From positions 1-39,007 of IMG/VR virus record IMGVR_UViG_3300017989_000039: a DNA stretch of 39,007 nucleotides; one strand, given 5' to 3'. The notes beneath the pieces are model-generated. The model was not told the DNA's origin. It was given only the letters and a program-made list of their open reading frames with translations, and searched no databases. The DNA is from a virus. A program made the position numbers and the translations under genes. Positions 9,140 to 39,007 of the stretch are shown one piece after another. Within the stretch, counting starts at the first letter, position 1. Each line of letters starts with the position of its first letter.

Positions 9140-9759
9140 CGGTAGGCCTCGTGCAGTCTCAAGTCAGGATACGGCAGGCACAGGTCTGGCAGATCGATGC
9201 CCAGCCCGTTGGCGTCGAAGAACTGCGGCATCAGGTGCAGGCCCTGTGCTGCGATGCTCGGCAGCATCCAGCAGTTCCAGCCGATCTGGTCGAACGTGTC
9301 GATGTGATAACTGATCGGATTCCTGCCTGACATTCGCGCTCGGCGGAACCAGGCGTCCGCCAACGGATCATCGTGCAGGATCGCGCCGCCCTTGCCCAGC
9401 TTCAGCCGCTTGTGCGGCCCGGTGAAGCTGACGCACTGGATTTGCTGCGGACGATACATTCCGGACGTGAACCGCAGCGCACAATCCCAGACCGGCGTCG
9501 GATCGAGCCGGTACGCGCCGGTCAGGTGGTCGGAGCCGATGTCATAGAAGGATACCTTCCCACCAGCCTGGATAATCGTACACGGGACGCTCATGTAGGT
9601 CCGATTGGGAATGGCGATGGTGTAATCCTGAATGTCCACCCAATGCAGCGCGAGCATGAGCGCACTGGTGCAGGAATCGACCGCCACCGCGTACCGAGCG
9701 CCGGTGTACTCGCACAGCGCATCTTCAAAGTCCCGCGTGACATCGTGCATGTTCTTCAT
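9136..9759 (-). CDS. Half-length DegT/DnrJ-type sugar aminotransferase
   Basis: ATG at 9,757-9,759 overlaps the terminase stop (ATGA); 207 residues. It opens with YTGARYAVAVDSCTSALMLAL, the PLP-phosphate-binding start of DegT/DnrJ/EryC1/StrS aminotransferases, then IAIPNRTYMSVPCTIIQAGG. SFTGPHKRLKLGKGGAIL is the segment in which the catalytic Lys forms the internal aldimine. Full-length relatives have about 370 residues; here the C-terminal domain is missing, with no frameshift visible. It may be a minimal form, need a partner, or have lost activity. Full members transfer an amino group to a keto-sugar nucleotide. Confidence 0.7.
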   Translation of the reverse strand: MKNMHDVTRDFEDALCEYTGARYAVAVDSCTSALMLALHWVDIQDYTIAIPNRTYMSVPCTIIQAGGKVSFYDIGSDHLTGAYRLDPTPVWDCALRFTSGMYRPQQIQCVSFTGPHKRLKLGKGGAILHDDPLADAWFRRARMSGRNPISYHIDTFDQIGWNCWMLPSIAAQGLHLMPQFFDANGLGIDLPDLCLPYPDLRLHEAYR

Positions 9760-10985
9760 GCCACACCTCGAATGCCTTTCACCACCGGACGGCTGATCGG
9801 GAAGCGACGGTGCAGGAAATACCCTGCGCTGTCGCACCAGTCATCGATGGCCGGGTGCTGGTCGAACTTTTCCGGCGATCCATCGCTGGCGTAGCCTTGC
9901 ATCTCCAGAGCGTCGGCCAGCTCAGGACAGCGGGCAGCGTTGACCCTGATCTTGTCGTGTGCGAACAGCCCGTTGACGGCATTCACGCGATCACGGATCG
10001 CTGGATTCGCTCGCGGTGCATCGACGCGGAATCCCGCCTGCTGGATGATGTCGAGGTCAGATTCGGCGGCATTGGTCCGCTGCGCCTTCCCACTGGCGTC
10101 AGGGTAGACCGTGATCGGATGATCCCGGTACCGCGCCAGGCGCGTGCAGAAGTCGCGGGTGTCTTTGCTGACGAACTCACCGACCGCCACCGGCGTCCGC
10201 CCATCGATGACCCAGACCGTCGCGCAACAGCCACCGATGTTAAAATCAATCCCGACGTGCAGCCGCTCGCCGGGTGAAGGCTCGCGGTCGGTGTCGTGCT
10301 TGATCCGGTCGTAGGCGTGATACACCTTGTCGCGGGTGAAGCTCACGAACTCGCCGCGCAGGTAGGCGTCCACCAGAACCGGATCGTACTGCGCCACCAG
10401 GCTGGCGGCGTAGTCTTCCGGCAGGAAGGGATTGTCGTAGGTGCTGGCGCGGATCAGCAGCCAGTCAGCGTCGGTGGACTTGCCCCATCGCTCGAACGTG
10501 AAGCCGTTGACGCCCTGGTCTGGCGTGGACACATTCCCGATGGAATTGCCGCGTTGCGTTTTCTGGCGCGTGCGCTCGACCGCTTTCTGCCAGACAGCGC
10601 GTGCTTTCTCACGCGGTAGCGTATCCAGCTCATCCATGATCGTGTGCGCTGACTCAAACGCAATCCACCGGCCCGGATTGTCGTAGCTGCGGAAATAGAT
10701 TTTCCCGAAGCCGTGAATCTGGATCGACCATTCGGATTTATTCAGCGTGTAATCCAATCCGATCTCGGTCAGGTCTGCTTCAACGCCCGGAATGGCCCTC
10801 AGGCGCAGCAGGTCATACGTCGGCATTCCCAGCAGCGTATTGATGCCCGGTTCCGTCACCATCAGATACACCAGCCGAATTGTGGCGGCTTTCGTCTTGC
10901 CGGAACCGTAGCCGCCGACGATGGCCGGATACCGCGCCTGACTGGCAACGAACTGCATCTGGTGTGCCAGCAGCGTAATGTTCAT
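9756..10985 (-). CDS. terL: Terminase large subunit
   Basis: A 409-residue packaging motor. The ATPase half has Walker A GGYGSGKT (24-31) and Walker B TIMDEL (115-120). The nuclease half has HVGIDFNIGG with Asp 247 and YPDASG with Asp 296, which are the metal-binding acidic residues of the RNase H-like fold. It translocates DNA through the portal and cuts concatemers. The start overlaps the small subunit stop (ATGA). At 409 residues it is on the short side for TerL. The headful-type grouping is only inferred from the circularly permuted-looking assembly. Confidence 0.9.
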   Translation of the reverse strand: MNITLLAHQMQFVASQARYPAIVGGYGSGKTKAATIRLVYLMVTEPGINTLLGMPTYDLLRLRAIPGVEADLTEIGLDYTLNKSEWSIQIHGFGKIYFRSYDNPGRWIAFESAHTIMDELDTLPREKARAVWQKAVERTRQKTQRGNSIGNVSTPDQGVNGFTFERWGKSTDADWLLIRASTYDNPFLPEDYAASLVAQYDPVLVDAYLRGEFVSFTRDKVYHAYDRIKHDTDREPSPGERLHVGIDFNIGGCCATVWVIDGRTPVAVGEFVSKDTRDFCTRLARYRDHPITVYPDASGKAQRTNAAESDLDIIQQAGFRVDAPRANPAIRDRVNAVNGLFAHDKIRVNAARCPELADALEMQGYASDGSPEKFDQHPAIDDWCDSAGYFLHRRFPISRPVVKGIRGVA

Positions 10986-11338: not shown

Positions 11339-11974
11339 TCAAGGCACCAGCACTCCCCAGGACACCGGAAACAGCGGCGATAGTATCACACTGACCTGCT
11401 CCGCAAGCTCGCGCACCTCGGCCTGTGCGTGATCGTCCAGTCTTTGACCACAGGCACGGGCAAAATACGCCAGACTCCCGGTCTCGATCCACTCGGTCAT
11501 CATCGACTGCGGGAGAATCGATCGTGCCTGCTCCGGCGCGACGCCCTGGGCAATGAGATTGTCGTACAGCAGGCGGCATTGGTTCTCGGCCTCGCTGACC
11601 TTCCGCTTGATCGCAAACTGCTGGTGCGGATCGAGCGACCCACCACTGCCTTGCTTGATCGACCCGGCAGGCCTGCGCCGCCAGGTCTCGATGCGGTAGA
11701 ACGACGGCGCATCGTCGACGTAGCGGCGTGAGACCTCATTGCGAGCAACGCCCACCTGATGACGCCACCACTGCCGAGCGACGAACACCGGTGCGCTGAT
11801 GCGGAGCGTTACCTGCGGATGGCTGAACGGCGACCAGTGGCCGTGCTTCGCCAGATACTGGATCAGCCGCTCGTCGGTGTCGTCGAAGTCGAACTTGTAC
11901 TTGGCGAACGATACGCGAGCCGCGTTCACGACCGCCAGATCGTCGCCCATGTGGCTCAGGTATTCGGCGTGCAT
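11339..11974 (-). CDS. thyX: Flavin-dependent thymidylate synthase
   Basis: A 211-residue ThyX, which makes dTMP from dUMP using FAD, NADPH and methylene-tetrahydrofolate. The signature region is RQWWRHQVGVARNEVSRRY (68-85): RH at 71-72, then Gln 73 where the textbook motif has Arg, and Ser 82 after eight residues. This KHQ/RHQ-type variant also occurs in other phage ThyX proteins. HGHWSPFSH (44-52) and the C-terminal RLDDHAQAEVREL match the family. The ATG directly follows the dcd stop (TAA-ATG), so the two nucleotide genes are co-expressed and lie just ahead of the packaging genes. Confidence 0.9.
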   Translation of the reverse strand: MHAEYLSHMGDDLAVVNAARVSFAKYKFDFDDTDERLIQYLAKHGHWSPFSHPQVTLRISAPVFVARQWWRHQVGVARNEVSRRYVDDAPSFYRIETWRRRPAGSIKQGSGGSLDPHQQFAIKRKVSEAENQCRLLYDNLIAQGVAPEQARSILPQSMMTEWIETGSLAYFARACGQRLDDHAQAEVRELAEQVSVILSPLFPVSWGVLVP

Positions 11975-12514
11975 TTACTCCACCCCCTTGCTCGGCTGCG
12001 GCGCTCTCTGGCCGTTGTATCGCCCTCTGGCGGCGTATGACGCCTCGGACGGCACCGGCTGGCCAGACCAGAACACCATCTGTCCGATTGGCATACCTTG
12101 CCTGATCCGCAGGCTCGTGCCTCGCGTGATGTTGATCAGTTCCAGCGTCAGCGTCGCACCGTGCCAGCCCGGATCGCACCAACCTGCTAGCAGATGTTGC
12201 AAGCCTGACCGCGCCAAGCTCGACTTGAGCTTGTACTCCGCCGCCACGTTGTCCGGCAGGTTGAACACTTGCTCGGTGCTGGCAAGCACGAAATCACCAG
12301 GATGCAGAATCCACGATCCGTCCGGCTCGCGCTCCAGCGGTCGCAGTCTCGGCGCCTCTTTGCGCGTCAGGTCGCAGACACTCGGGACGTCTTCCACCAG
12401 GACAATCTCACCGAGCGTGATGTCGATGCTGGCGGCGTTGATCTGCTCTGGCTTGACGTTCTCGATCACGCCGCGCTCCACCAGCGCCAGCAGGTCGTGG
12501 TAGGTCATGAGCAT
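11975..12514 (-). CDS. dcd: dCTP deaminase
   Basis: A 179-residue trimeric dCTP deaminase/dUTPase-fold protein. KLKSSLARSGL (96-105) is the nucleotide-phosphate-binding motif, and GWCDPGWHGATLTLELIN (111-128) contains the catalytic Glu 125. A late IGQMVFW segment is the usual beta strand. It converts dCTP to dUTP. No dUTPase is encoded nearby, so either the host hydrolyses dUTP to dUMP for ThyX, or the enzyme is bifunctional. AAGGAGGT precedes the first ATG by about 7 bases. The start overlaps the small gene upstream. Confidence 0.88.
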   Translation of the reverse strand: MLMTYHDLLALVERGVIENVKPEQINAASIDITLGEIVLVEDVPSVCDLTRKEAPRLRPLEREPDGSWILHPGDFVLASTEQVFNLPDNVAAEYKLKSSLARSGLQHLLAGWCDPGWHGATLTLELINITRGTSLRIRQGMPIGQMVFWSGQPVPSEASYAARGRYNGQRAPQPSKGVE

Positions 12515-12672
12515 TGCCGCACCTCCTTATCCCGCACCTCGGTCCACTCGACTGCCTCAGCCTGGCGCACAGCCTCGAGGTAGTCCACCGCCGAACCGCG
12601 TCCAACGATACCACGGACGTGGTGGTGCACCTCCCACGTGTAGCCCAAATCCTTCCTTTCGATGACGATCAT
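12505..12672 (-). CDS. Small hypothetical protein, 55 aa
   Basis: ATG at 12,670-12,672 is chosen because GGAGG lies five bases before it; an upstream in-frame ATG (12,693) has no such site. The product (MIVIERKDLGYTWEVHHHVRG...) has a beta-like N-terminus and an acidic helix (DYLEAVRQAEAVEW). Its stop overlaps the dcd start by 10 bases. It is the first gene after the AT-rich gap at 12,673-12,976, so it probably opens the leftward late transcript. Function unknown. Confidence 0.65.
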   Translation of the reverse strand: MIVIERKDLGYTWEVHHHVRGIVGRGSAVDYLEAVRQAEAVEWTEVRDKEVRQCS

Positions 12673-12976
12673 GAGTGCCTCCAAATCGGGCATGTAAACC
12701 AGTAACCAATGTAACTACGTTCCCTATACTCCTATATACCCCCCTTTTAAGGTGTATATTTGTGTACTATATTTCTTTAATACCCTTAAATAACCCCTAT
12801 ACAGCTAAGTTAGATATTCTAGTTACTTTAGTTACAAAGTGTCTTTTCTGTTGCGCCTTCAATCACTTAAGGTGTAACTAGCAGTGTAACTAGCCCGGTT
12901 TTCTGGTTACGTTGGTTACAATCGCTGGTTTACAAACCGAGGCTAGTTACAATTCTAGTTACACGATTTGACGCCC
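12673..12976. promoter_or_regulatory. AT-rich intergenic region with paired GTAAC iterons; candidate origin / late control region
   Basis: This 304-base gap holds no gene. It is much more AT-rich than the genome and contains ten GTAAC/GTTAC pentamers arranged as five same-orientation pairs: 12,702/12,711, 12,822/12,831, 12,874/12,886, 12,906/12,915 and 12,946/12,958. Pair spacings are 9, 9, 12, 9 and 12 bases. Extended copies read CTAGTTACA or GGTTAC. An AT-rich core with TATA-like runs lies at 12,721-12,800. The vapE primase-helicase gene ends at its right edge. Iterons plus an AT-rich stretch beside a replication initiator gene are typical of origins. A promoter for the dcd-to-head transcript may also be here, but I cannot fix the boxes. 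Confidence 0.6.
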
Positions 12977-15334
12977 TCAGAACGGCACGTCGTCGTTGTC
13001 GCAGTCCGTCTTGCCCCAACCACGCTGGACGCCGTAGCGGTCGCCGAACCGCATCACTTTGCGCCGTTCCCAACCCGGCATCCGGTCCATGATCGCAGCG
13101 ATCCGGTTGCTGTCCTGACGCCGACATCCCGACCGTTCGCCCAGGCAGTCCTGCCAGATTTCAGCAACGCAGACCTTATCCCGAGTGCCCATGTCTTCGA
13201 CCATGCTGTCGGTCAGATACCGGTTGCGGTCAGCCTTCTTCGCCAGCCATTCGGCGATGACGCCTTCCCACTGATCGGACTCGCGCTTGTCGTCTTGCAG
13301 GCCGCGCACGATTGCCTTCGCCTCGTCGTCCAGTAAGGTCGACTCGCCCAGCAGGTATCGTGCATAGGCTTCCGCCCAAAGCTGATCGACCTCGGCCCGA
13401 AGACCGTCCAGGTCGATCTCTCCACCTTCCGCAATGCCCGACTCAATCGGCCACCAGCGCCGGTTGCCAGTCGAATCCTTGAGATACTCCGCCTGGTTCG
13501 TCGTGGCGATGAACACGCACTGACGCTTCATCTCGATCGGGTGTCTGGCATAGGCCATGCGGACGGTCGTTGACGTTGCGGAGATAAACGCCTTCTGCTG
13601 TTCCAGTTCGGACCGGTTGGTCGCGCCCAGTTCGGTGATCTCCATCACCCAGCGCCCTTGCATCTCCTCGGCTGCGATCTTGTGATCGAAGCTGGAAAGC
13701 TCGCCGTACCATCGTCCGCCCAGAATCGCCACGAAGGTGCTTTTCCCGATGCCCTGACGCCCACCGAGGACCGGCACGTAGTCGAACTTGTAGCCCGGTT
13801 CAAATGCCCGAGCGACCGCCGCGACCATCAGACACTTGGCGGCCTGACGGGTATAGATGTTGTCCTCGGAGTGAAGCCAGCGAACAAACAGAGTATCGAT
13901 ACGCTCGACACCATCCCAAGCCAGCGACTCGATCCAGTCACGCACCGGATGGTAGGACTGTGTGCGAGCGCGATGCGCGATTGCGTGTTCGATCTTTGCC
14001 TCCGGAAAGTCCACCTGATACTTGCGCCCGACATAGTGGCGCAACGGCAGAGAGTGCTTGTCGTTCCACAGATCACCATCGACATGCTCGACGCGCTCGG
14101 CCAGCAGGTTGTAGCGCATGACATCGCGGATGTGGCTGTCGTGCTGCAAGATCAGCACCGCATTGGTGAAGGTGGTTTTGATCTCGCCGGTATCATGGAC
14201 CTGAAGATGCGCGAGCCACTCCCGGTCATCGTCGCCCTGGTCGTCGAACTCGTCGGCTGTGATCTCCAGCCCCGCCGCGATCAGGTCTTCTTTGACGCCC
14301 GACTGTTCCCGTGCGAACTCGTCCATTGCGGCGAAGCTGGGCAGGCGATGGGATGGAGTGTCCGGCTTGGCGTCATCGTCCAGATGCCCGAACTTGTGGA
14401 TGCGAAGCAGATCGAAGGCATTGCAGGTCTGACCGAACGCCGGATCGGACTCATGGTTTGAGTAGACGAACCGGTCATCGTAGACCACTACGCCTTTCGT
14501 CGTTGTGCCTTCGTTGTAGGTGTAGCGGTTGCGGCTGTCCTGCGTATACGCGCCGGTCATCGTCAGCGCCTTGTGGATGTCCACACTGCGGCAGAACGCG
14601 CCGACGATACCTTTCTTCGATAGCGGATCGGCCTGACGCTTGACGCGCAGACTGAGCCGCTTGTTCTCCCGATCGCTCTGTGGCCATTCGGTCACGTCGC
14701 GCCAGTCGGTGTACTCATCCAGAATCGTCTGCACAGCCAGCGGAGGCGCGTCGTTGTGGCGGAACACGAACTCGCCATCGGCAGGCGTCGATGGCCAATA
14801 CATCAACCGGTTGATGTCGTAAGTGCTGGCGTCCATCGACTCAATGCCGACTTTCTCCGCGATCTTCCGCATGGTCGGCTGATACTGCTCAGGCAGCATC
14901 GGACTATCGGCATAGACCACCAGGCGCAGACGCGGACTGTCTGGCTTGTGCTTGTGCGTCGAATAGATCGTGTAGCAGCAATGCCCGAGCGCCTTCTCGA
15001 CGCGATCCACAAAGTCGGTTGTTGCGTGATCGGCATCGAAGGTCATCATCGACCGGTTGGCGACGGTGTGCTTGAGCCGTCGACCGCCCTTCAGCAGTCC
15101 GCCGACGTAAGCCCCAACATCCTTGATGTTGTCCTGTTCGGCCTTCGGCATCGCGTGATACTCATCGACGCTCTCGACGGTGCGAACCGTGCGCCCCAGC
15201 TTGCGGACGAACTCGGACAGGTCCATCTGCGAGTTGCGCCAGTTGGCGGCATTGCGCCCTGACGCCGTGGCGACCTGGACCGTAAAGTCATGCTTCAGGC
15301 GCGTCCCATCGTCCATCTCTTTAAGCAGCATCAT
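12977..15334 (-). CDS. VapE-type primase-helicase
   Basis: A 785-residue replication protein. The N-terminal third looks like an archaeo-eukaryotic primase domain: SMMTFDADHAT (about 96-106) supplies FDAD, followed by YSTHKHKPDSPRLRLV and DINRLMYWPSTP. The C-terminal half is the virulence-associated E (VapE) SF3-like ATPase with Walker A GGRQGIGKST (524-533), Walker B VMEITEL (563-569), sensor CVFIATTN (about 606-613) and TGNRRWWPI. It likely primes and unwinds phage DNA. I chose ATG 15,332-15,334 because GGGGG lies 6-7 bases before it. It overlaps the cro-like gene by 14 bases, so both are expressed leftward together. Confidence 0.85.
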   Translation of the reverse strand: MMLLKEMDDGTRLKHDFTVQVATASGRNAANWRNSQMDLSEFVRKLGRTVRTVESVDEYHAMPKAEQDNIKDVGAYVGGLLKGGRRLKHTVANRSMMTFDADHATTDFVDRVEKALGHCCYTIYSTHKHKPDSPRLRLVVYADSPMLPEQYQPTMRKIAEKVGIESMDASTYDINRLMYWPSTPADGEFVFRHNDAPPLAVQTILDEYTDWRDVTEWPQSDRENKRLSLRVKRQADPLSKKGIVGAFCRSVDIHKALTMTGAYTQDSRNRYTYNEGTTTKGVVVYDDRFVYSNHESDPAFGQTCNAFDLLRIHKFGHLDDDAKPDTPSHRLPSFAAMDEFAREQSGVKEDLIAAGLEITADEFDDQGDDDREWLAHLQVHDTGEIKTTFTNAVLILQHDSHIRDVMRYNLLAERVEHVDGDLWNDKHSLPLRHYVGRKYQVDFPEAKIEHAIAHRARTQSYHPVRDWIESLAWDGVERIDTLFVRWLHSEDNIYTRQAAKCLMVAAVARAFEPGYKFDYVPVLGGRQGIGKSTFVAILGGRWYGELSSFDHKIAAEEMQGRWVMEITELGATNRSELEQQKAFISATSTTVRMAYARHPIEMKRQCVFIATTNQAEYLKDSTGNRRWWPIESGIAEGGEIDLDGLRAEVDQLWAEAYARYLLGESTLLDDEAKAIVRGLQDDKRESDQWEGVIAEWLAKKADRNRYLTDSMVEDMGTRDKVCVAEIWQDCLGERSGCRRQDSNRIAAIMDRMPGWERRKVMRFGDRYGVQRGWGKTDCDNDDVPF

Positions 15335-15524
15335 CCGTGGCCCCCACAATGTCCCGCGCACGGAACCGACCCTCGGTCATGCGCTCGATCTGTATCGCCC
15401 GTCGTGCGGGCAGTCCGTACCGCAGCCAATGCGAGACGGCTGCGCGTTCAACGCCCAGCGCCTCGGCCAGTCTGGCCTTGCCCCCGAAGTGTTCGATGAC
15501 CTCCTGCACTTGACACCCTCCCAT
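15321..15524 (-). CDS. Cro/YdaS-like helix-turn-helix regulator
   Basis: A 67-residue protein. VQEVIEHFGGKARLAEALGV-ERAAVSHWLRYGLPARRAIQIERMTEGRF matches the YdaS/Cro family: a helix-turn-helix (KARLAEALGVERAAVSHWL, 16-34) followed by the P-x-x-R-A-I-Q-I-E-x-x-T-x-G-x-F recognition tail. It is transcribed leftward just ahead of vapE. The ATG has no Shine-Dalgarno and lies about 10 bases from the predicted transcript start, so it may be leaderless, as lambda cI is from PRM. It probably binds the palindrome at 15,532-15,548. No second repressor gene was found. Confidence 0.8.
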   Translation of the reverse strand: MGGCQVQEVIEHFGGKARLAEALGVERAAVSHWLRYGLPARRAIQIERMTEGRFRARDIVGATDDAA

Positions 15525-15570
15525 TGCTACTGTTAAATGCAGCTTAACACCCTGAAGCACGATACAGCAA
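15510..15570. promoter_or_regulatory. Overlapping divergent promoters
   Basis: Rightward: TTGACA (15,510-15,515), 17-base spacer, TTAAAT (15,533-15,538). Leftward: TTGCTG (complement of 15,565-15,570), 17-base spacer, TTAAGC (complement of 15,542-15,547). Both -10 boxes fall inside one 17-base palindrome, so a single bound dimer could block both directions. The boxes are my reading from spacing and consensus and are not experimentally supported. Confidence 0.55.
15532..15548. promoter_or_regulatory. Operator palindrome O1
   Basis: GTTAAATGCAGCTTAAC has GTTAA/TTAAC arms seven bases apart; one more flanking base on each side (T/A) extends the symmetry. It lies between the divergent cro-like and rightward replication genes. 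A near-identical palindrome occurs at 17,092-17,108. Binding by the Cro-like protein is inferred from position. Confidence 0.7.
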
Positions 15571-15582
15571 ATGGAGATAAAG

Positions 15583-15972
15583 ATGACGATCGAGAAAGAC
15601 CTGCAAGACCTCACCGCCAGCGTCCGGGAACTGACACGGTTGCTGGACCTTGTAATCCTGAACGCCGAGCAACGCGAGGAACGCGCCGCGATGCGCGAGC
15701 AGGACAATCCTCCGAAGCAACGCCATCCCGATCCGGTCATCCCACCGGAAGGCGATCCGGCGCTAGACACTGCGCCGCCAGCAGCGCCAGCCGAGACGCA
15801 GGCCATTACAAAAAACGAGTTGATGCAGTGGGCGCTCGCCCAAGTTCGTGAGAATCCAGCCTTCAAGCAAACGCTGGTGGAAGTGCTCAAGGACTACAAC
15901 GTCAAGACCATCAACAAGCTGGACGACGCGGACGTGACGGCAGTCTACTCCGCCCTCGGAGGTGGACGATGA
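15583..15972 (+). CDS. Hypothetical protein leading the rightward replication operon
   Basis: I start it at the ATG at 15,583, because GGAG lies about 7 bases before it; an ATG at 15,571 is also in frame. The 129-residue product has a helical, possibly coiled-coil start (IEKDLQDLTASVRELTRLLDLVI), a Pro/Ala-rich linker in the middle, and a compact C-terminal helical part (NPAFKQTLVEVLKDY...LDDADVTAVYSAL). I recognise no named family. Similar short proteins with a C-terminal LDDADV-type end often come before recombination genes in phages. It overlaps the DUF2800 start by 4 bases. Confidence 0.65.
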   Translation: MTIEKDLQDLTASVRELTRLLDLVILNAEQREERAAMREQDNPPKQRHPDPVIPPEGDPALDTAPPAAPAETQAITKNELMQWALAQVRENPAFKQTLVEVLKDYNVKTINKLDDADVTAVYSALGGGR

Positions 15973-17096
15973 GCGCACACGCGAAACTCAGCGCGAGCGG
16001 CGCACATCGTTGGATGGCTTGCCCTGGTAGCATCGCTGCCGAGGCAGGACTGCCTGACCGCCCATCAATCCATGCGACCGAAGGAACGGTCGCCCACTCA
16101 CTCGCCGAAGAGTGTCTGCTTGGCTATCGCAATCCCTTCGATTTCGTCGGCAAGATCGCTTTCGGCGAAGGCATCGAGATCACCGCAGAGATGGCGTCCG
16201 CAGTCGAACAGTATCTTGATTACATCGCAGAGCATGTGCCCGGCGAAGTCGAGTTCGAGCAGCGCGTTCGGTATGACCGTTGGGTGCCAGGTGGCTTTGG
16301 CACCGTCGACACGGTGAGCGTTCACGATGGCACGATTTACGTTGTCGACCTCAAGTATGGCAAAGGAGTGCGCGTCGAAGCCGAGCGGAACAAGCAGTTG
16401 ATGCTGTATGCCCTCGGTGCCTACGACGAGCGACACCTGCTGGACGACATCACCGAGGCCGTGCTGGTGATCGTGCAACCGCGACTGGATCACATCAGCG
16501 AATGGCGGATCACTATTGACGAGCTACTGGCCTTCGGGAAGGAAGCACGGCAGGCAGCCAAACGCGCTTTGGAACGCAACGCCGAACGCATCCCAGGTGA
16601 GGCACAGTGTCGATTCTGCAAGGCCAAGGCCACCTGTCCCGCGTTGCTACAGTTGACGCACGACGTTATCGCTGACGACTTCGACGCGCTGCCTGACATC
16701 CAAGCACTGGACGACGAGCGACTCGGTCTGGTGCTGACGCACAAGTCGATGATCCTCGACTGGCTAAAGGCGGTTGAAGATCACGTGACCGAGCAACTGC
16801 TGTCCGGCAACGCTGTGCCTGGCTGGAAGCTGGTCGAAGGCCGATCGTTGCGCCAGTGGTCGAACGAGCCGGACGCCGAGGCGATGCTGGAAAGCCTGAT
16901 CGGTGACAAGGCATGGGAGCGCAAGCTGCTGTCGCCAGCGAAAGCAGAGAAGGCCGTCGGCAAAGCGAAGGCGCAACTGCAAGACCTGATCGTCAAGCCA
17001 GCGGGCAAACCGACGCTCGCGCCCGAGGCCGACAAGCGCAAGGCAATACAACCGACAGGAGGTGACTTCGACGATTTGACGCAGATTGAAGGTTAA
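15969..17096 (+). CDS. DUF2800 protein, Cas4/RecB-like Fe-S nuclease
   Basis: A 375-residue protein of the DUF2800 family, part of the PD-(D/E)XK nucleases. Cys 18 (RWMACPGS) together with CRFCKAKATC (Cys 214, 217, 223) is the four-cysteine pattern that holds a 4Fe-4S cluster in Cas4 and AddB. The nuclease centre is suggested by His 43 (TVAHSLAEE), Asp 114 (GTVDTV) and VVDLKYGKG (Asp 127, Lys 129). It would resect DNA ends during replication or recombination with the single-strand-binding-like protein downstream. The stop codon TAA lies inside operator O2. Confidence 0.8.
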   Translation: MSAHAKLSASGAHRWMACPGSIAAEAGLPDRPSIHATEGTVAHSLAEECLLGYRNPFDFVGKIAFGEGIEITAEMASAVEQYLDYIAEHVPGEVEFEQRVRYDRWVPGGFGTVDTVSVHDGTIYVVDLKYGKGVRVEAERNKQLMLYALGAYDERHLLDDITEAVLVIVQPRLDHISEWRITIDELLAFGKEARQAAKRALERNAERIPGEAQCRFCKAKATCPALLQLTHDVIADDFDALPDIQALDDERLGLVLTHKSMILDWLKAVEDHVTEQLLSGNAVPGWKLVEGRSLRQWSNEPDAEAMLESLIGDKAWERKLLSPAKAEKAVGKAKAQLQDLIVKPAGKPTLAPEADKRKAIQPTGGDFDDLTQIEG

Positions 17097-17108
17097 AGTA
17101 CGCTTAAC
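17076..17108 (+). promoter_or_regulatory. Operator palindrome O2 with possible promoter
   Basis: GTTAAAGTACGCTTAAC (17,092-17,108) matches operator O1 at 13 of 17 positions, with identical arms and spacing. TTGACG (17,076-17,081) followed after 17 bases by TACGCT (17,099-17,104) is a weak promoter candidate. The site includes the stop codon of DUF2800 and lies 22 bases before the DUF2815 ATG, so it could give that gene its own regulated transcript. Confidence 0.6.
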
Positions 17109-17129
17109 TCTCATCCCACAGATAGGACG

Positions 17130-17651
17130 ATGAAGATGAAAATCAAGATGCAGAATGTTCGACTGTCGTTCCCCTCGCTTTTCCGCAAGGCCGTGTTCAA
17201 CGGTGAGGAAACCAAGTTCGAGGCAAACTTCCTCATCGAGAAGGACAGCGAGTTGGCAAAGACCGTCAAGGACGGCATCGCCAGCCTCATCAAGAACGAG
17301 CTGAAAGGCCAGAAGCTCGGCTCTGACAAGCTCTGCATGAAGGACGGCGACGAGCTGACCTATGACGGCTGTGCTGGTCACTGGTCCCTCAAGGCCAGCA
17401 ACGCTAAGCGTCCGCTGGTGATCGACAAGGACAAGACACCGCTCACCGAGGAAGATGGACGCATCTACGCTGGATGCTACGTCAACGCCATCGTGGAACT
17501 GTGGGCGCAGAACAACGCCTATGGGAAGCGCATCAACGCAAAGCTCATGGGTGTGCAGTTCGCAAAAGACGGCGAACCCTTCGGCGACGGCGAGCGCGTC
17601 AGCGTCGACGACTTCGATACACTGGAGGACGACGAAGACCCGTTCGGTTGA
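17130..17651 (+). CDS. DUF2815, single-strand DNA-binding-like protein
   Basis: A 173-residue protein. The start VRLSFPSLFRKAVFNGEETKFEANFLIEK is characteristic of DUF2815. YGKRINAKLMGVQFAKDGEPFGDG and the acidic tail (DDFDTLEDDEDPFG) resemble SSB proteins, whose acidic end recruits partners. Two Met codons (17,130 and 17,136) could start it; AGGA lies 4 and 10 bases before them. It sits between the Cas4-like nuclease and the DNA polymerase, as in many phages. An upstream operator copy and an intrinsic terminator immediately downstream suggest it is made in larger amounts than the polymerase. Confidence 0.8.
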   Translation: MKMKIKMQNVRLSFPSLFRKAVFNGEETKFEANFLIEKDSELAKTVKDGIASLIKNELKGQKLGSDKLCMKDGDELTYDGCAGHWSLKASNAKRPLVIDKDKTPLTEEDGRIYAGCYVNAIVELWAQNNAYGKRINAKLMGVQFAKDGEPFGDGERVSVDDFDTLEDDEDPFG

Positions 17652-17659
17652 CCATCCCA

Positions 17660-17689
17660 GGGGCGCAGCAATGCGCCCCTTTTCTTTTT
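17660..17689 (+). terminator. Rho-independent terminator between DUF2815 and DNA polymerase
   Basis: GGGGCGCA-GCAA-TGCGCCCC (17,660-17,679), an eight-base-pair stem with a GNRA-type tetraloop, is followed by TTTTCTTTTT. It lies inside the replication operon, so it would attenuate polymerase, VRR-NUC and helicase expression unless read through or antiterminated. Confidence 0.9.
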
Positions 17690-17702
17690 GAGGCTACTCC
17701 TC

Positions 17703-19475
17703 ATGATCATAATCGACTGCGAAGTCTACCGGGATTATTTCCTTTTTTCTGCGCTCCACAGCGCCTCTGGGCGCGTCATCTCGTTGGAGCAATACCCAGA
17801 CAAGCCGTTTGACGCCAGCGTCGCCATGGCGATGCTGACGCGGCATACGTCCGTTGGTTTCAACAGCGCATCGTTCGACCTTCCCATCATCGCAGCGGCA
17901 GTTTCTGGCGCAGACTGCGAGCGGTTAAAGACCATCGCTGACAAGATCATCGGCACCAAAGGTTCGCCTTGGCGAGTGCTGCAAAGCCTTCGCATCAGCG
18001 TTCCGCAATCATGGGACCATATCGATCTGATCGACGTGGCACCCGGCAAATCGTCGCTCAAGATTTACGGCGGTCGGCTGCACTCGCGGCGGATGCAAGA
18101 CCTCCCGATACCGCCGGACGCCAGCATTGCGCCCGAGCAACGCGCTCTGCTGCGCGAGTATTGCGAGAACGATCTACGCACGACGCTTGATCTGTACCGG
18201 GCGCTGGAAAAGCAGATTGATCTGCGCGTCAGCATGTCCGAGCAATACGGCATGGACCTGCGCTCAAAATCGGACGCGCAGATCGCGGAGGCTGTCATCC
18301 GCAGCGAAGTGACGAAACGCACCGGCATTGAATACCGGCGTCCTGACATCGATCAGGAGCGGTTCCACTACCGCGATCCGGGCATTGTCGAGTTCCACGA
18401 CCGGCAATTGCGCGAAGTGTTCCAGCGCATGAAGACCGAACCGTTCGCGCTGGCAGCGAACGGCGGTATCCAGATGCCCGACTGGCTGGCAAAGCGAAGC
18501 GTGATCATTGCGGGAAAAGAATACCGGCTCGGCATTGGCGGACTGCACTCGTGCGAGTCGCGCCGCACGATCCGCAGGCAGCCAGGCGAGATACTCCAAG
18601 ACTGGGATGTCGCCAGCTACTACCCTTCCATTGTCCTGCACCAGCGCCTTGCGCCGGAGAGCATGGGTGATGACTTCCTCAAGGTGTACCAGTCCATCGT
18701 CACCAGACGACTTGAAGCCAAAGCCAGCGGCGACAAGGTGACGGCGGACACGCTCAAGATCGCCATCAACGGTTCTTTCGGAAAGCTCGGCAGCAAGTAT
18801 TCGGCGCTGTACGCGCCGCAGCTATTCCTTCAGGTGACGATCACCGGGCAACTGTGTTTGCTGATGCTCATTGAGATGATGGAGCGCCGAGGTGTCAGTG
18901 TCGCCAGTGCGAATACCGACGGCATCGTCATCCACACGACGGAGAGCAACCGCGATGTGGTGGACGAGGTGACGTTTGACTGGATGATGCGGACCAGCTT
19001 TGCGCTGGAGTGCAGCGACTATGACGCGCTGATCAGCCGCGACGTCAACAGCTACCTGGCTGTCCGGCATGACGGCAAGATCAAAGGCAAAGGCATCTTC
19101 GGTGAACCAAGCCTCATGAAGAACCCGGACCTGCAAATTGTGACGCAGGCCGTTGCGGAGTACGGCGCACACGGCATACCGATTGAGCAGACGATCCGCA
19201 ATGCTCGGGACGTGCGCGATTTCCTGAGTGTGCGGCAGGTGAAGGATGGCGCGATCTGGCGAGGCCAGCTTCTCGGCAAGGCTGTCCGGTTTTACTACTC
19301 GACGGCGGTTCGATCCGACGAGTGTATCCACTACGTCAAGAACGGCAACCGGGTTGCGAAGTCGGCAGGCGCAAAGCCGCTGATGACACTGCCCGACACG
19401 CTCCCGAATGACATCGACTACGCGGCCTATATTGAGGCCGCAGACAAGCTCAAAGCAGAGGTGGGACTATGCTAG
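17703..19475 (+). CDS. Family B-type DNA polymerase
   Basis: A 590-residue polymerase with proofreading. ATG 17,703 has GAGG nine bases upstream. Exonuclease motifs: DCE (Asp 5, Glu 7), GFNSASFD (Asn 54-Asp 59) and YCENDL (Tyr 153-Asp 157). Polymerase motifs: A DVASYYPS (302-309), B KIAINGSFG (352-360), C ANTDGIVI (403-410). Motif C has Asn instead of the first Asp of DTDS; Asp 406, equivalent to the essential second Asp, remains. It is far shorter than typical family B enzymes (about 800-900), with only a minimal thumb. It would replicate the phage genome with VapE. Confidence 0.88.
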   Translation: MIIIDCEVYRDYFLFSALHSASGRVISLEQYPDKPFDASVAMAMLTRHTSVGFNSASFDLPIIAAAVSGADCERLKTIADKIIGTKGSPWRVLQSLRISVPQSWDHIDLIDVAPGKSSLKIYGGRLHSRRMQDLPIPPDASIAPEQRALLREYCENDLRTTLDLYRALEKQIDLRVSMSEQYGMDLRSKSDAQIAEAVIRSEVTKRTGIEYRRPDIDQERFHYRDPGIVEFHDRQLREVFQRMKTEPFALAANGGIQMPDWLAKRSVIIAGKEYRLGIGGLHSCESRRTIRRQPGEILQDWDVASYYPSIVLHQRLAPESMGDDFLKVYQSIVTRRLEAKASGDKVTADTLKIAINGSFGKLGSKYSALYAPQLFLQVTITGQLCLLMLIEMMERRGVSVASANTDGIVIHTTESNRDVVDEVTFDWMMRTSFALECSDYDALISRDVNSYLAVRHDGKIKGKGIFGEPSLMKNPDLQIVTQAVAEYGAHGIPIEQTIRNARDVRDFLSVRQVKDGAIWRGQLLGKAVRFYYSTAVRSDECIHYVKNGNRVAKSAGAKPLMTLPDTLPNDIDYAAYIEAADKLKAEVGLC

Positions 19476-19735
19476 AACAAGCCATTGAACAGGCGCTGAT
19501 CGCCCGTGTGCGCGATCTGGGCGGCACATGCGAAAAGTTCACCTCACCCGGTCGGCGGTCGGTTCCGGACCGGCTGGTGACGCTACCCGGTGGGCGGATC
19601 ATCTTCGTTGAGTGCAAACGCCCAGGCGGTATTCCGACGATCAAGCAGGCGCTCGACCACGACCGCCGTCGGACGCTCGGTTGTGACGTGCGCGTGATCA
19701 GCACCATCGAGCAGGCTCATGCGTTCCCGGACTGA
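19469..19735 (+). CDS. VRR-NUC domain nuclease
   Basis: An 88-residue protein consisting of one VRR-NUC domain, a PD-(D/E)XK relative. GGTCEKFTSPGRRSVPDRLV supplies the acidic PD, and GGRIIFVECKRPGG supplies the ExK pair. A following basic helix (KQALDHDRRRTLG) fits the family. In phages this stand-alone nuclease often lies beside a SNF2 helicase and is thought to process Holliday junctions or flaps. The ATG overlaps the polymerase stop (ATGCTAG) and its end overlaps the helicase start, so the three genes are coupled. Confidence 0.88.
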   Translation: MLEQAIEQALIARVRDLGGTCEKFTSPGRRSVPDRLVTLPGGRIIFVECKRPGGIPTIKQALDHDRRRTLGCDVRVISTIEQAHAFPD

Positions 19736-21053
19736 CTTGCACCCGTACCAGCGCCGAGCGGTCGACTACATCGTCAGCCGCCCGGCCTGCGCTCTCTGGC
19801 TGGACCTCGGCCTCGGCAAGACGATCTCGACACTGACCGCACTGGCAGACCTGATCGACGGTTGTATTGTCGAGCGGGCGCTGGTCATTGCGCCATTGCG
19901 CGTATGTCAGACCGTATGGGCGCAGGAGATGGGCGCATGGGCGCACACACGCCACCTCAGAGCCTCGCGGATACTGGGCAGCAGGCAAGCCCGCTGCGAG
20001 GCTCTACGCGCCCCTGCGGACGTCTACATCATCAACCGGGAAAACATCCCGTGGCTGGTCGATCACTACCGCGACCGCTGGCCGTTCGATTGCGTCGTCA
20101 TCGATGAAGCGTCGTCGTTCAAGTCGTCGACGTCGAAGCGATGGAAGGCGCTGAAGAAGGTACGCAAGCACATCGATCAGATGATCGAACTCACCGCCAC
20201 ACCGGCCAGCAATGGTTTGGTCGATCTCTGGGCGCAGGCGTACCTGCTGGATGGCGGCGAGCGGCTCGGACGCACGAAGACATCCTATCTCCAACGATGG
20301 TTCGACGCCGACTACTGGGGTAGGCAGTGGACACCACGACCGGGCGCAGACGCCGCGATCCGCGAGCGGCTCTCGGACATCGTGCTGTCGATGCAGGCCA
20401 GCGACTATCTCGACATGCCCGAGCGCATCGATCTGCGGATTCCTGTGGCCCTACCGGCAGAAGCACGGGCGCAGTACAGCGAACTGGAGCGGACGCTGGT
20501 GCTGGCGCTGGAGGAAGAGGTGGTCGACGCCACGAACGCGGCGGTATTGGCGGGCAAGCTCATGCAGGTCTGCAATGGCGCGATCTACACCGAGACCAGC
20601 ACCGAGGTCTTGCACGACGCCAAGCTCGACGCGCTCGCAGAACTGCGCGAGGACAGCGTAGAGCCGATGCTGGTGGCCTACACCTACCGGCACGACCTGG
20701 AGCGCCTACAGCGCCGATTCTCGGACGCTGTGGCGATCACCGAACCGGACGCCATCGACCGTTGGAATCGCGGAGAGATTGCGATGCTGCTGGCGCACCC
20801 GGCCAGTGCAGGCCATGGGTTGAACCTCCAGCGAGGCGGCAGCCTGGTGGTCTGGTTCGGCCTCACGTGGTCGCTGGAACTCTACCAGCAGCTCAACGGC
20901 AGACTGCACCGGCAAGGTCAGACGCGCCCGGTGCGGATCGTTCACCTGGTCGCTGATGGCTGCATCGATGAGCGCGTCCTGGGGGCACTGGGAGCGAAGC
21001 ACGACGTGCAGCAGTCGCTGGTCGAAGGCCTGAAAACTATTTTCGGAAAATAG
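19719..21053 (+). CDS. SNF2/DEAD-type helicase
   Basis: A 444-residue superfamily 2 helicase. LHPYQRRAVDYI (7-18) is the Q-motif-like region, LDLGLGKT (28-35) Walker A, and VVIDEASSF (126-134) a DEAS Walker B. GRLHRQGQTRPV (394-405) is the SNF2 motif VI. The product is compact and lacks accessory domains. It is probably a DNA translocase helping replication fork or recombination processing with the VRR-NUC partner. The gene ends the replication operon; a new promoter follows at 21,075. Confidence 0.88.
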   Translation: MRSRTDLHPYQRRAVDYIVSRPACALWLDLGLGKTISTLTALADLIDGCIVERALVIAPLRVCQTVWAQEMGAWAHTRHLRASRILGSRQARCEALRAPADVYIINRENIPWLVDHYRDRWPFDCVVIDEASSFKSSTSKRWKALKKVRKHIDQMIELTATPASNGLVDLWAQAYLLDGGERLGRTKTSYLQRWFDADYWGRQWTPRPGADAAIRERLSDIVLSMQASDYLDMPERIDLRIPVALPAEARAQYSELERTLVLALEEEVVDATNAAVLAGKLMQVCNGAIYTETSTEVLHDAKLDALAELREDSVEPMLVAYTYRHDLERLQRRFSDAVAITEPDAIDRWNRGEIAMLLAHPASAGHGLNLQRGGSLVVWFGLTWSLELYQQLNGRLHRQGQTRPVRIVHLVADGCIDERVLGALGAKHDVQQSLVEGLKTIFGK

Positions 21054-37642: not shown

Positions 37643-38139
37643 TAGGATTGCTCCGGGTCTAATGGCGACTCGATCCCGAACAGCGCGTCCATCTGCTCGT
37701 CAGTGTAGCCCATCGCCTCACCAAGCTGAATCAGGTCTGGGTGCATCCGATCAAACGTGCTGCTGTCATCCCACATGATCTGGATGTTCCGAGGCCACGA
37801 TGGATACGCGGCTTCGATGTCGTCAAGGTACCCTGCGGCGAGAAGCGCCAATTTGAACTGCGCCCGAGAAAGACTGGCGGCAGCGCGTTGGTTTTCCTTT
37901 CGAGCAACCTCGCGCTCTTCTGGAGTGCCAGCCGGTTTGCGGGTGTATTGGGTTCCGTCGAATTGCCAGTCGGTATAGCCGAGCGGCGCATCGCCTGATG
38001 CCGTGACGTGCGGATAGATGCCAAGCACTGCGAGCGCGGCTGTGTCTTCGCGCTTGATCAGCGGCGCTGTCGGGGTCAGCATCCCGTCATGCTGGACGTG
38101 GCGCGGCGGGGTTTTGTGAGATTGGGTAAGATATTTCAT
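37642..38139 (-). CDS. Hypothetical tail-fibre-associated protein, 165 aa
   Basis: ATG 38,137-38,139 overlaps the LRR gene stop (TAATG), with GGAG about 10 bases before it; an in-frame ATG at 38,172 is inside the LRR gene and is rejected. The C-terminal half contains LSRAQFKLALLAAGYLDDIEAAYPSWPRNIQIMWDDSSTFDRMHPDLIQLGEAMG, a pattern common in small phage proteins beside tail fibres. It could be a chaperone for the adhesin. Compositionally AT-richer at its start, like the LRR gene. Confidence 0.65.
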   Translation of the reverse strand: MKYLTQSHKTPPRHVQHDGMLTPTAPLIKREDTAALAVLGIYPHVTASGDAPLGYTDWQFDGTQYTRKPAGTPEEREVARKENQRAAASLSRAQFKLALLAAGYLDDIEAAYPSWPRNIQIMWDDSSTFDRMHPDLIQLGEAMGYTDEQMDALFGIESPLDPEQS

Positions 38140-39007
38140 TATTGCGCCACTCCGTTTAATGTGATTGTCCACCCGCGAGACTTAAGATTCGTAACCGCTG
38201 TCGATACCGATGGCGTACCCGTGCCTGCGTCATAATCGATTGTGATGTCAACGCCAGAAGCAGGGGCAGACTGACCTGATGTGTCAAGGCTATTTAGGAT
38301 GTTCTCTACCGATGTGGCGGTGAGTGATGAACAACCGTCCCATGCGTTTACGAAACAGTTATCGACAGGTGTACCTGTCCAGCTATCAAAGAAGTTAGCT
38401 GGGAAAGATGTAAGCGATGAGCAGTTGCGCCATGCTGCCTGAAAATACGTCCCACTGGATGTGTTAATTAGAGGGAATGATGTGAGTGAGGTGCAGTTGA
38501 GCCATGTTTCTTTAAAATTCGTCCCACTGGATGTGTTAATCAGAGGAAACGATGTGAGAGAGGAGCAGCCGTCCCATGCTTGAACAAAATTCGTCCCGCT
38601 GGATGTGTTAATCAGAGGAAAAGATGTGAGTGACGAGCAGTCGCCCCATGCTAAACTAAAATTCGTCCCACTTGATGTGTCGATCAGAGGAAACGATGTG
38701 AGTGACGAGCAGGCTAGCCATGCTCGACTAAAATTCGTCACGCTGGATGTGTCTAGCAGAGGGAAAGAGGTGAGTGAGGTGCAATTGCGCCATGTTTCTG
38801 TAAAATTCGTCCCGCTGGAGGTGTCGATTAGAGGAAATGACGTGAGTGAGGTGCAATTGCGCCATGCAAAAGAAAAACTCGTCCCGCTGGAGGTGTCGAT
38901 CAGTGGAAACGATGTAAGCGATGAGCAGCCTTCCCATGCTAAACTAAAATTCGTCCCACTTGATGTGTCGATCAGAGGAAATGACGTGAGTGATGAGCAG
39001 CCGCGCC
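38139..39007 (-). CDS. BspA-like leucine-rich-repeat surface protein, C-terminal part (joins 1-581)
   Basis: Continuation of the gene that starts at 581; unique sequence is 38,139-38,904. Read from 38,906 it keeps the same frame as the left part. It carries most of the 24-residue repeats: nine regular units in the joined product, one longer variant at each end. The last repeat (TSFPANFFDSWTGTPVDNCFVNAWDGCSSL) is followed by a 60-residue non-repeat C-terminal cap ending in LNGVAQ. Variable positions are the pair before AW and the pair before C, for example SQ-AW-RG, SL-AW-EG, SF-AW-RN, TE-TW-RN, KE-TW-LN. The remaining residues are nearly fixed. Confidence 0.85.
   Translation of the reverse strand, partial: RGCSSLTSFPLIDTSSGTNFSLAWEGCSSLTSFPLIDTSSGTSFSFAWRNCTSLTSFPLIDTSSGTNFTETWRNCTSLTSFPLLDTSSVTNFSRAWLACSSLTSFPLIDTSSGTNFSLAWGDCSSLTSFPLINTSSGTNFVQAWDGCSSLTSFPLINTSSGTNFKETWLNCTSLTSFPLINTSSGTYFQAAWRNCSSLTSFPANFFDSWTGTPVDNCFVNAWDGCSSLTATSVENILNSLDTSGQSAPASGVDITIDYDAGTGTPSVSTAVTNLKSRGWTITLNGVAQ
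38322..39007 (-). repeat. 72-bp tandem repeats of the LRR gene, right part
   Basis: Main portion of the 24-codon repeat array. Units are recognisable by the recurring plus-strand sequence TCGTCCC-CTGGA/T-GTG before a variable block. The repeats are AT-rich compared with the rest of the genome. Joined to 1-230, about eleven units in total; copy number is uncertain because of assembly in near-identical repeats. Confidence 0.9.
38905..39007. repeat. Terminal direct repeat, right copy
   Basis: Identical to bases 1-103; see the left copy. The right copy is redundant for gene counting. Confidence 0.95.

Follow-up and report, generated by a model that had tools for sequence, protein, structure and literature searches.

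The cluster of short repeats that adjoins vapE in a phage contig of 39,007 bp (hereafter, the window, i.e., the whole stretch of DNA that was analyzed) is, judging from its sequence and from that of its relatives, very probably the site at which this phage starts replication, and it appears to be an origin of the SaPI/PICI type. A candidate replication origin had been proposed here in an earlier note on the same DNA, and the proposal gains support from an arrangement conserved 3' of vapE, from covariation between the iteron letters and VapE, and from the homology of VapE to PriRep1. As far as these comparisons reach, what is new is a fixed layout with changing letters, in complete phages. An earlier description of a PICI-type origin in VapE phages was not found in the open-licence literature.

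The array (12701-12963) lies directly 3' of vapE, whose stop codon is at 12977, and comprises ten GTAAC/GTTAC pentamers arranged as five same-strand pairs with spacings of 9 or 12 (Table 1). All of these pentamers, as well as the end of a VapE-type gene at the border of the gap, were found where the earlier note had placed them. The same note had described a 304-base AT-rich gap. Its AT-richness is borne out, since positions 12703-12852, at 31% GC (61% for the contig), have the highest AT content of any 150-bp stretch; its extent needs a small correction, since the small ORF on the far side may begin at 12693, which would put the true gap at about 12694-12976. At 10/10 sites, the match can be extended around the pentamer core to an octamer, [T/A/C]GTAAC[T/C]A (NGTAACYA), with a motif register that was set by rule, is uncertain for GTAAC-type iterons, and is ambiguous by one base in the window itself.

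Table 1. Coordinates of the putative origin, of vapE, and of neighboring genes in the window.
Feature	Position	Strand	Details
Iteron pair, layout pair 4	12701..12717	+	Pentamers 12702/12711, spacing 9, AGTAACCA + TGTAACTA; the single pair beyond the AT-rich spacer, seen from vapE
Iteron pair, layout pair 3	12820..12836	-	Pentamers 12822/12831, spacing 9
Iteron pair, layout pair 2	12873..12892	+	Pentamers 12874/12886, spacing 12, TGTAACTA x2
Iteron pair, layout pair 1	12904..12920	-	Pentamers 12906/12915, spacing 9
Outer iteron pair	12944..12963	-	Pentamers 12946/12958, spacing 12, TGTAACTA x2; adjoins the vapE stop; position less constant among relatives
AT-rich spacer	12718..12819	.	102 bp, 33% GC, between pairs 3 and 4; candidate melting region
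Putative origin region	12694..12976	.	AT-rich gap, from the vapE stop to the next small ORF
vapE, primase-polymerase/helicase, proposed initiator	12977..15361	-	794 aa; Pfam VapE-like 7.9e-75; phrog_256 1e-262
C-terminal winged-helix domain of VapE, proposed iteron reader	13010..13273	-	Residues ~697-784; AlphaFold2, fold search, covariation
VapE wing residue 769	13055-13057	-	
Small ORF beyond the gap	12505-12693	-	May begin at 12693
Terminase	9756-10985		
Cro/YdaS-like regulator	15321-15890		

In the remaining 38.7 kb of the window, GTAAC occurs 11 times in total and is unclustered. Shuffles of the gap that preserve dinucleotide content contained a mean of 1.8 GTAAC/GTTAC, with at least 10 copies in 0/20,000. 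If the search is opened to the best pentamer of any kind, 10 copies are reached in 1.2% of the gap shuffles, which could be taken to favor chance clustering in AT-rich DNA. However, the window attains the maximum score of 9.0 in the template test of the layout described below, a value matched by 0/500 window shuffles, none of which rose above 6.0, and the layout is conserved in unrelated letters in many relatives. Chance is refuted by these comparative data, and we assign it a negligible probability.

A single VapE protein used to query viral and genome contigs returned almost nothing, and alignments were needed. Six alignment-based scans yielded over 400 loci, and 169 non-redundant vapE 3' regions were analyzed. 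The commonest hexamer in each of these regions occurred 6.3 times on average, compared to 3.2 elsewhere in the loci and 3.3 in shuffles, and at least six copies of one hexamer were present in 57% of the regions vs 0.6% elsewhere and 0.9% in shuffles (n = 169). Same-strand distances in the 169 relatives peak at 9 (135) and 12 (55). In a held-out set of 65 new non-redundant relatives, 77% had at least six copies, and 60% passed a similar threshold for the layout. Other repeats occupy this place, next to the same kind of VapE, in Clostridioides phage phiCDKH02 (GTCAAC), Staphylococcus phage QT1 (GTCCC/GGGAC), and Corynebacterium phage Lederberg (TTGTCCC/GGGACAA); GTTACC is an iteron in yet other phages. 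In addition, a scan of viral contigs with a 16-letter pattern returned 43 contigs, of which one (L041) was shown to be a true relative, with the same GTAAC-type array between vapE and VRR-NUC; most of the 43 look like chance matches. The GTTAC repeats with 9/12 spacing in another contig (L028, 4661-4745) were rejected as a coding coincidence in an unrelated phage, as they lie inside a very large coding ORF rich in Asn-Val-Thr.

The letters of the iterons behave differently within and between phages: 86-95% of the copies agree at the central positions within a phage, whereas between phages the commonest letter at these positions reaches only 40-77%. The earlier note had held that iterons not conserved in relatives would speak against an origin; what the relatives conserve is the geometry, not the letters. 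In one pair of phages (L056 and L065), the VapEs are 83% identical outside the C-terminal domain, and the iterons differ throughout (GGATACA vs GGGTACA), a contrast which suggests that dispersed iteron copies change together.

Read from vapE, the layout runs 9 (->->), 21, 12 (<-<-), 44, 9 (->->), ~100 bp of AT-rich DNA, and 9 (<-<-); with the sites aligned on one pair, it is -86+,-77+ / -56-,-44- / 0+,9+ / ~110-,~119-. A rigid 9/12 template placed only 17/73 regions above every shuffle, since spacings can differ by 1 bp and a pair may lack one of its mates, and a tolerant template was adopted instead. With this template, a layout score of at least 6 was obtained for 55% of the relatives, compared to 1.2% of shuffles and 0/169 other stretches. 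Of 62 relatives, 85% have a higher AT content in the spacer that separates pairs 3 and 4 than in the iteron block (mean 28% vs 38% GC). In about 40-45% of the relatives, no clear layout is seen 3' of vapE, especially where little room follows the gene (the layout is present in 21% of relatives with a gap of <60 bp and in 69% of those with a gap of at least 200 bp), so the site is either not universal or located elsewhere in those phages. Croceibacter phage P2559Y, a cultured relative, is one in which vapE is followed by no gap. Two loci have a layout-like array at a distance and none at the vapE 3' end (L064, ~2.6 kb after vapE, GTGAAC; L073, ~2.0 kb, TATCCA), and these arrays are possibly displaced origins. 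The 9/12 spacing had initially been thought unusual; across the regions compared here, it is the fixed grammar of the family and not a peculiarity of this phage.

Which part of VapE would read the iterons is indicated by its predicted structure and by covariation. In AlphaFold2 models, residues 697-784 of VapE follow the order helix-strand-helix-helix-strand-strand, i.e., that of a winged helix, with a putative recognition helix at 748-760 and a wing at 764-784. A fold search with this domain alone returned the C-terminal domain of PriRep1 as the best match (Z 9.6), followed by winged-helix DNA binders (Z 5-6). Over residues 380-788, VapE aligns with both the helicase and the C-terminal domain of SaPI-type PriRep1 bound to dsDNA (7pds; Z 31.5, 394 residues, 34% identity), and the profile match of VapE to 7pds is 3e-123. 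The two differ in that the VapE chain also includes a primase as its N-terminal half, whereas the solved 7pds chain covers the helicase part (477 residues), and the C-terminal domain of VapE has diverged from that of PriRep1 (19-22% identity).

Across 80 phages, with the remainder of VapE controlled for, identity in its C-terminus predicts iteron similarity (partial Mantel p = 0.003), with modest partial correlations (r 0.15-0.23), and the remainder does not once the C-terminus is controlled for (p = 0.45). Neither VRR-NUC nor PolA identity correlated with iteron similarity. The best 40-column window for iteron similarity was VapE 743-783 (p = 0.006 after taking the maximum over windows). These tests at the level of the domain and of 40-column stretches were the only significant ones, as single-column association by pairwise identity was not; nearly invariant columns with a high z in whole-protein mutual information (e.g., 85) were disregarded as small-count effects. 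For an initiator that would read its iterons via a C-terminal domain, both covariation and a winged-helix fold are seen here. The earlier note had suggested VapE or its N-terminal half as the binder; VapE is retained as the predicted binder, whereas the evidence favors its C-terminal domain over the N-terminal half.

Within the wing, Lys769 occurs with C at iteron position 6 in 14/14 phages of the discovery set. In held-out loci, which share ancestry with the first set, Lys/Arg769 is accompanied by C at position 6 in 5/5 cases vs 1/32 for other residues (p = 1.4e-5), under a rule that was picked after the data had been viewed. On the tree, the trait shows ~8 changes, and of 7 independent pairs, 5.3 agree and 0 oppose (p ~0.06). 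The C at position 6 would be explained if a basic side chain at 769 faced the guanine of the C:G pair. More than a hundred related phages retain the spacing of the repeats but spell the repeat differently, apparently so that it suits the DNA-reading end of the helicase that each encodes.

The same covariation bears on the possibility that the pairs are operators for a transcription factor, such as the Cro-like regulator of the phage, that controls the genes beside vapE. A Cro/YdaS-like regulator gene is indeed present (Table 1), the array contains one weak promoter-like match, and in the canonical gene order it precedes the next gene. However, promoter-like matches in the array are at chance level, and the array stands at the vapE 3' end whichever gene comes next, having moved with vapE in this phage. 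Moreover, in a comparison that covered VapE, VRR-NUC, and PolA, the iteron letters track the C-terminal winged helix of VapE and not VRR-NUC or PolA. We therefore consider operators an unlikely explanation, and an origin read by VapE is preferred.

Gene order in this phage is informative about the link between vapE and the array. The usual place of the array is between vapE and VRR-NUC. Here, vapE is on the strand opposite to the genes for DUF2800, the ssDNA-binding protein, PolA, VRR-NUC, and SNF2, with the array again at the 3' end of vapE; there is no gap between PolA and VRR-NUC, two genes that abut. From this arrangement, the array seems to have gone with vapE, as if vapE and the origin had moved as one unit. 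The five genes on the + strand keep their usual order (region 12977-21053). Directly beyond the origin are genes for a ThyX-type thymidylate synthase and a dCTP deaminase-like protein (11339-12514), followed by the terminase region. The terminase gene is not far away on the contig, as might be expected if the array were a DNA-packaging (pac/cos) or recombination site. In relatives, though, the array follows vapE in the replication module and not the terminase genes, and its letters covary with VapE, which makes such a site highly improbable.

GC skew, proposed earlier as a check on the origin, was of little help: the detrended minimum is at 15,816, ~3 kb from the array, where gene orientation flips, and since the skew is dominated by gene direction, its minimum says little on the origin. 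No Rfam families or tRNAs were found in the window. The contig has an exact 103-bp terminal repeat, and a 72-bp tandem repeat region is present at both of its ends (1-230 and 38329-39007), overlapping an ORF (38139-38741; phrog_34853, unknown function). These ends mean either that the genome is complete and circularly permuted or that the assembly broke within the repeat.

In phage P4, short iterons are bound by the C-terminal winged helix of the alpha protein, a primase-helicase, and there are two separate arrays, ori and crr, which lie about 4.5 kb apart. The earlier note had taken P4 as its model. In contrast to P4, the window has one cluster of GTAAC, with no second (crr-like) array in its 39 kb. 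P4 is not the best model, both because this second array is missing and because the closest relatives are PICI origins; the nearest model is the SaPI/PICI origin.

PICI origins are located immediately 3' of rep, with two iteron sets that flank an AT-rich region, and pri-rep plus ori segments of PICIs support plasmid replication (PMC6092414). Like those of SaPIbov1, SaPI1, and EcCICFT073 (PMC6092414), the site in the window is 3' of a homologous (primase-)helicase gene and has two iteron sets around an AT-rich region, and the iteron sequence differs between elements. Two Streptococcus satellites (L362 and L364) share with the window the 9-AT-9-44-12 spacing, which is complete in L364. The array in the window is lopsided, with four pairs on the vapE side and one on the other, whereas that of L364 occupies both sides of the spacer. 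A satellite has no full set of virion structural genes; the window, in contrast, encodes the major head protein, portal, terminase, tape measure, tail chaperone, and head-tail adaptor, and represents a complete phage that has head and tail genes of its own. Given the homology of VapE to the PICI Rep, the location of the array 3' of vapE, and a spacer flanked by iterons, we infer an origin anatomy and an initiator of the PICI type.

SaPI Rep and SCCmec Cch2 read iterons with their C-terminal domain (PMC7581432), and relatives of PriRep1 bind iterons in an origin directly downstream of their own gene (PMC7581432, PMC6092414). Cch2 (AAGTG iterons) resembles what we propose for VapE in that the C-terminal domain suffices to bind short iterons, which lie downstream of the gene; unlike VapE, it belongs to another helicase family and has three iterons only, and 9/12 pairs are not reported in the available part of the text (PMC7581432).

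An array bound by VapE might instead be a partition or incompatibility site, or one for copy-number control, and not a start site. Plasmid iteron arrays can serve partition, incompatibility, or copy-number roles, and VapE would still be the reader. However, PICI origins, which replicate plasmids together with pri-rep (PMC6092414), have this layout of an AT-rich spacer flanked by inward-pointing pairs, the window has no second array to be the origin, and the families searched yielded no partition gene. We regard this possibility as quite unlikely and a start site as the better reading.

Taken as a whole, it is highly likely that the site is an origin of the SaPI/PICI type, in which the iterons would be bound via the C-terminal winged helix of VapE and the spacer melted. 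VapE, an AEP-like primase fused to a superfamily-3-type helicase, would bind the octamers NGTAACYA through this domain, and the same-strand pairs, at 9 bp (one at 12), would position neighboring VapE subunits. The pairs that flank the ~100-bp AT-rich spacer both point inward and may seed two helicase rings, which would melt the spacer, and the N-terminal primase of VapE would then prime synthesis.

The finding provides a rule by which origins can be located from sequence alone in many phages that are otherwise uncharacterized, and it implies that complete phages commonly have a type of origin that had been described as unique to PICIs. We lean, with some reserve, toward a broader proposal: VapE phages and PICIs may use one origin grammar, a fixed geometry in which pairs of 9 and 12 bp surround a melting spacer, all iterons of a genome changing together and tracking a small specificity patch of the wing, with Lys/Arg769 selecting C:G. 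Origin specificity thereby becomes testable, as swapping one wing residue or one iteron letter should switch the working initiator. The evolutionary question is also raised of how dispersed copies, eight to fifteen in number, come to change in concert. If true, the shared grammar would be a code, readable in part, that assigns phages and satellites to replication-compatibility groups.
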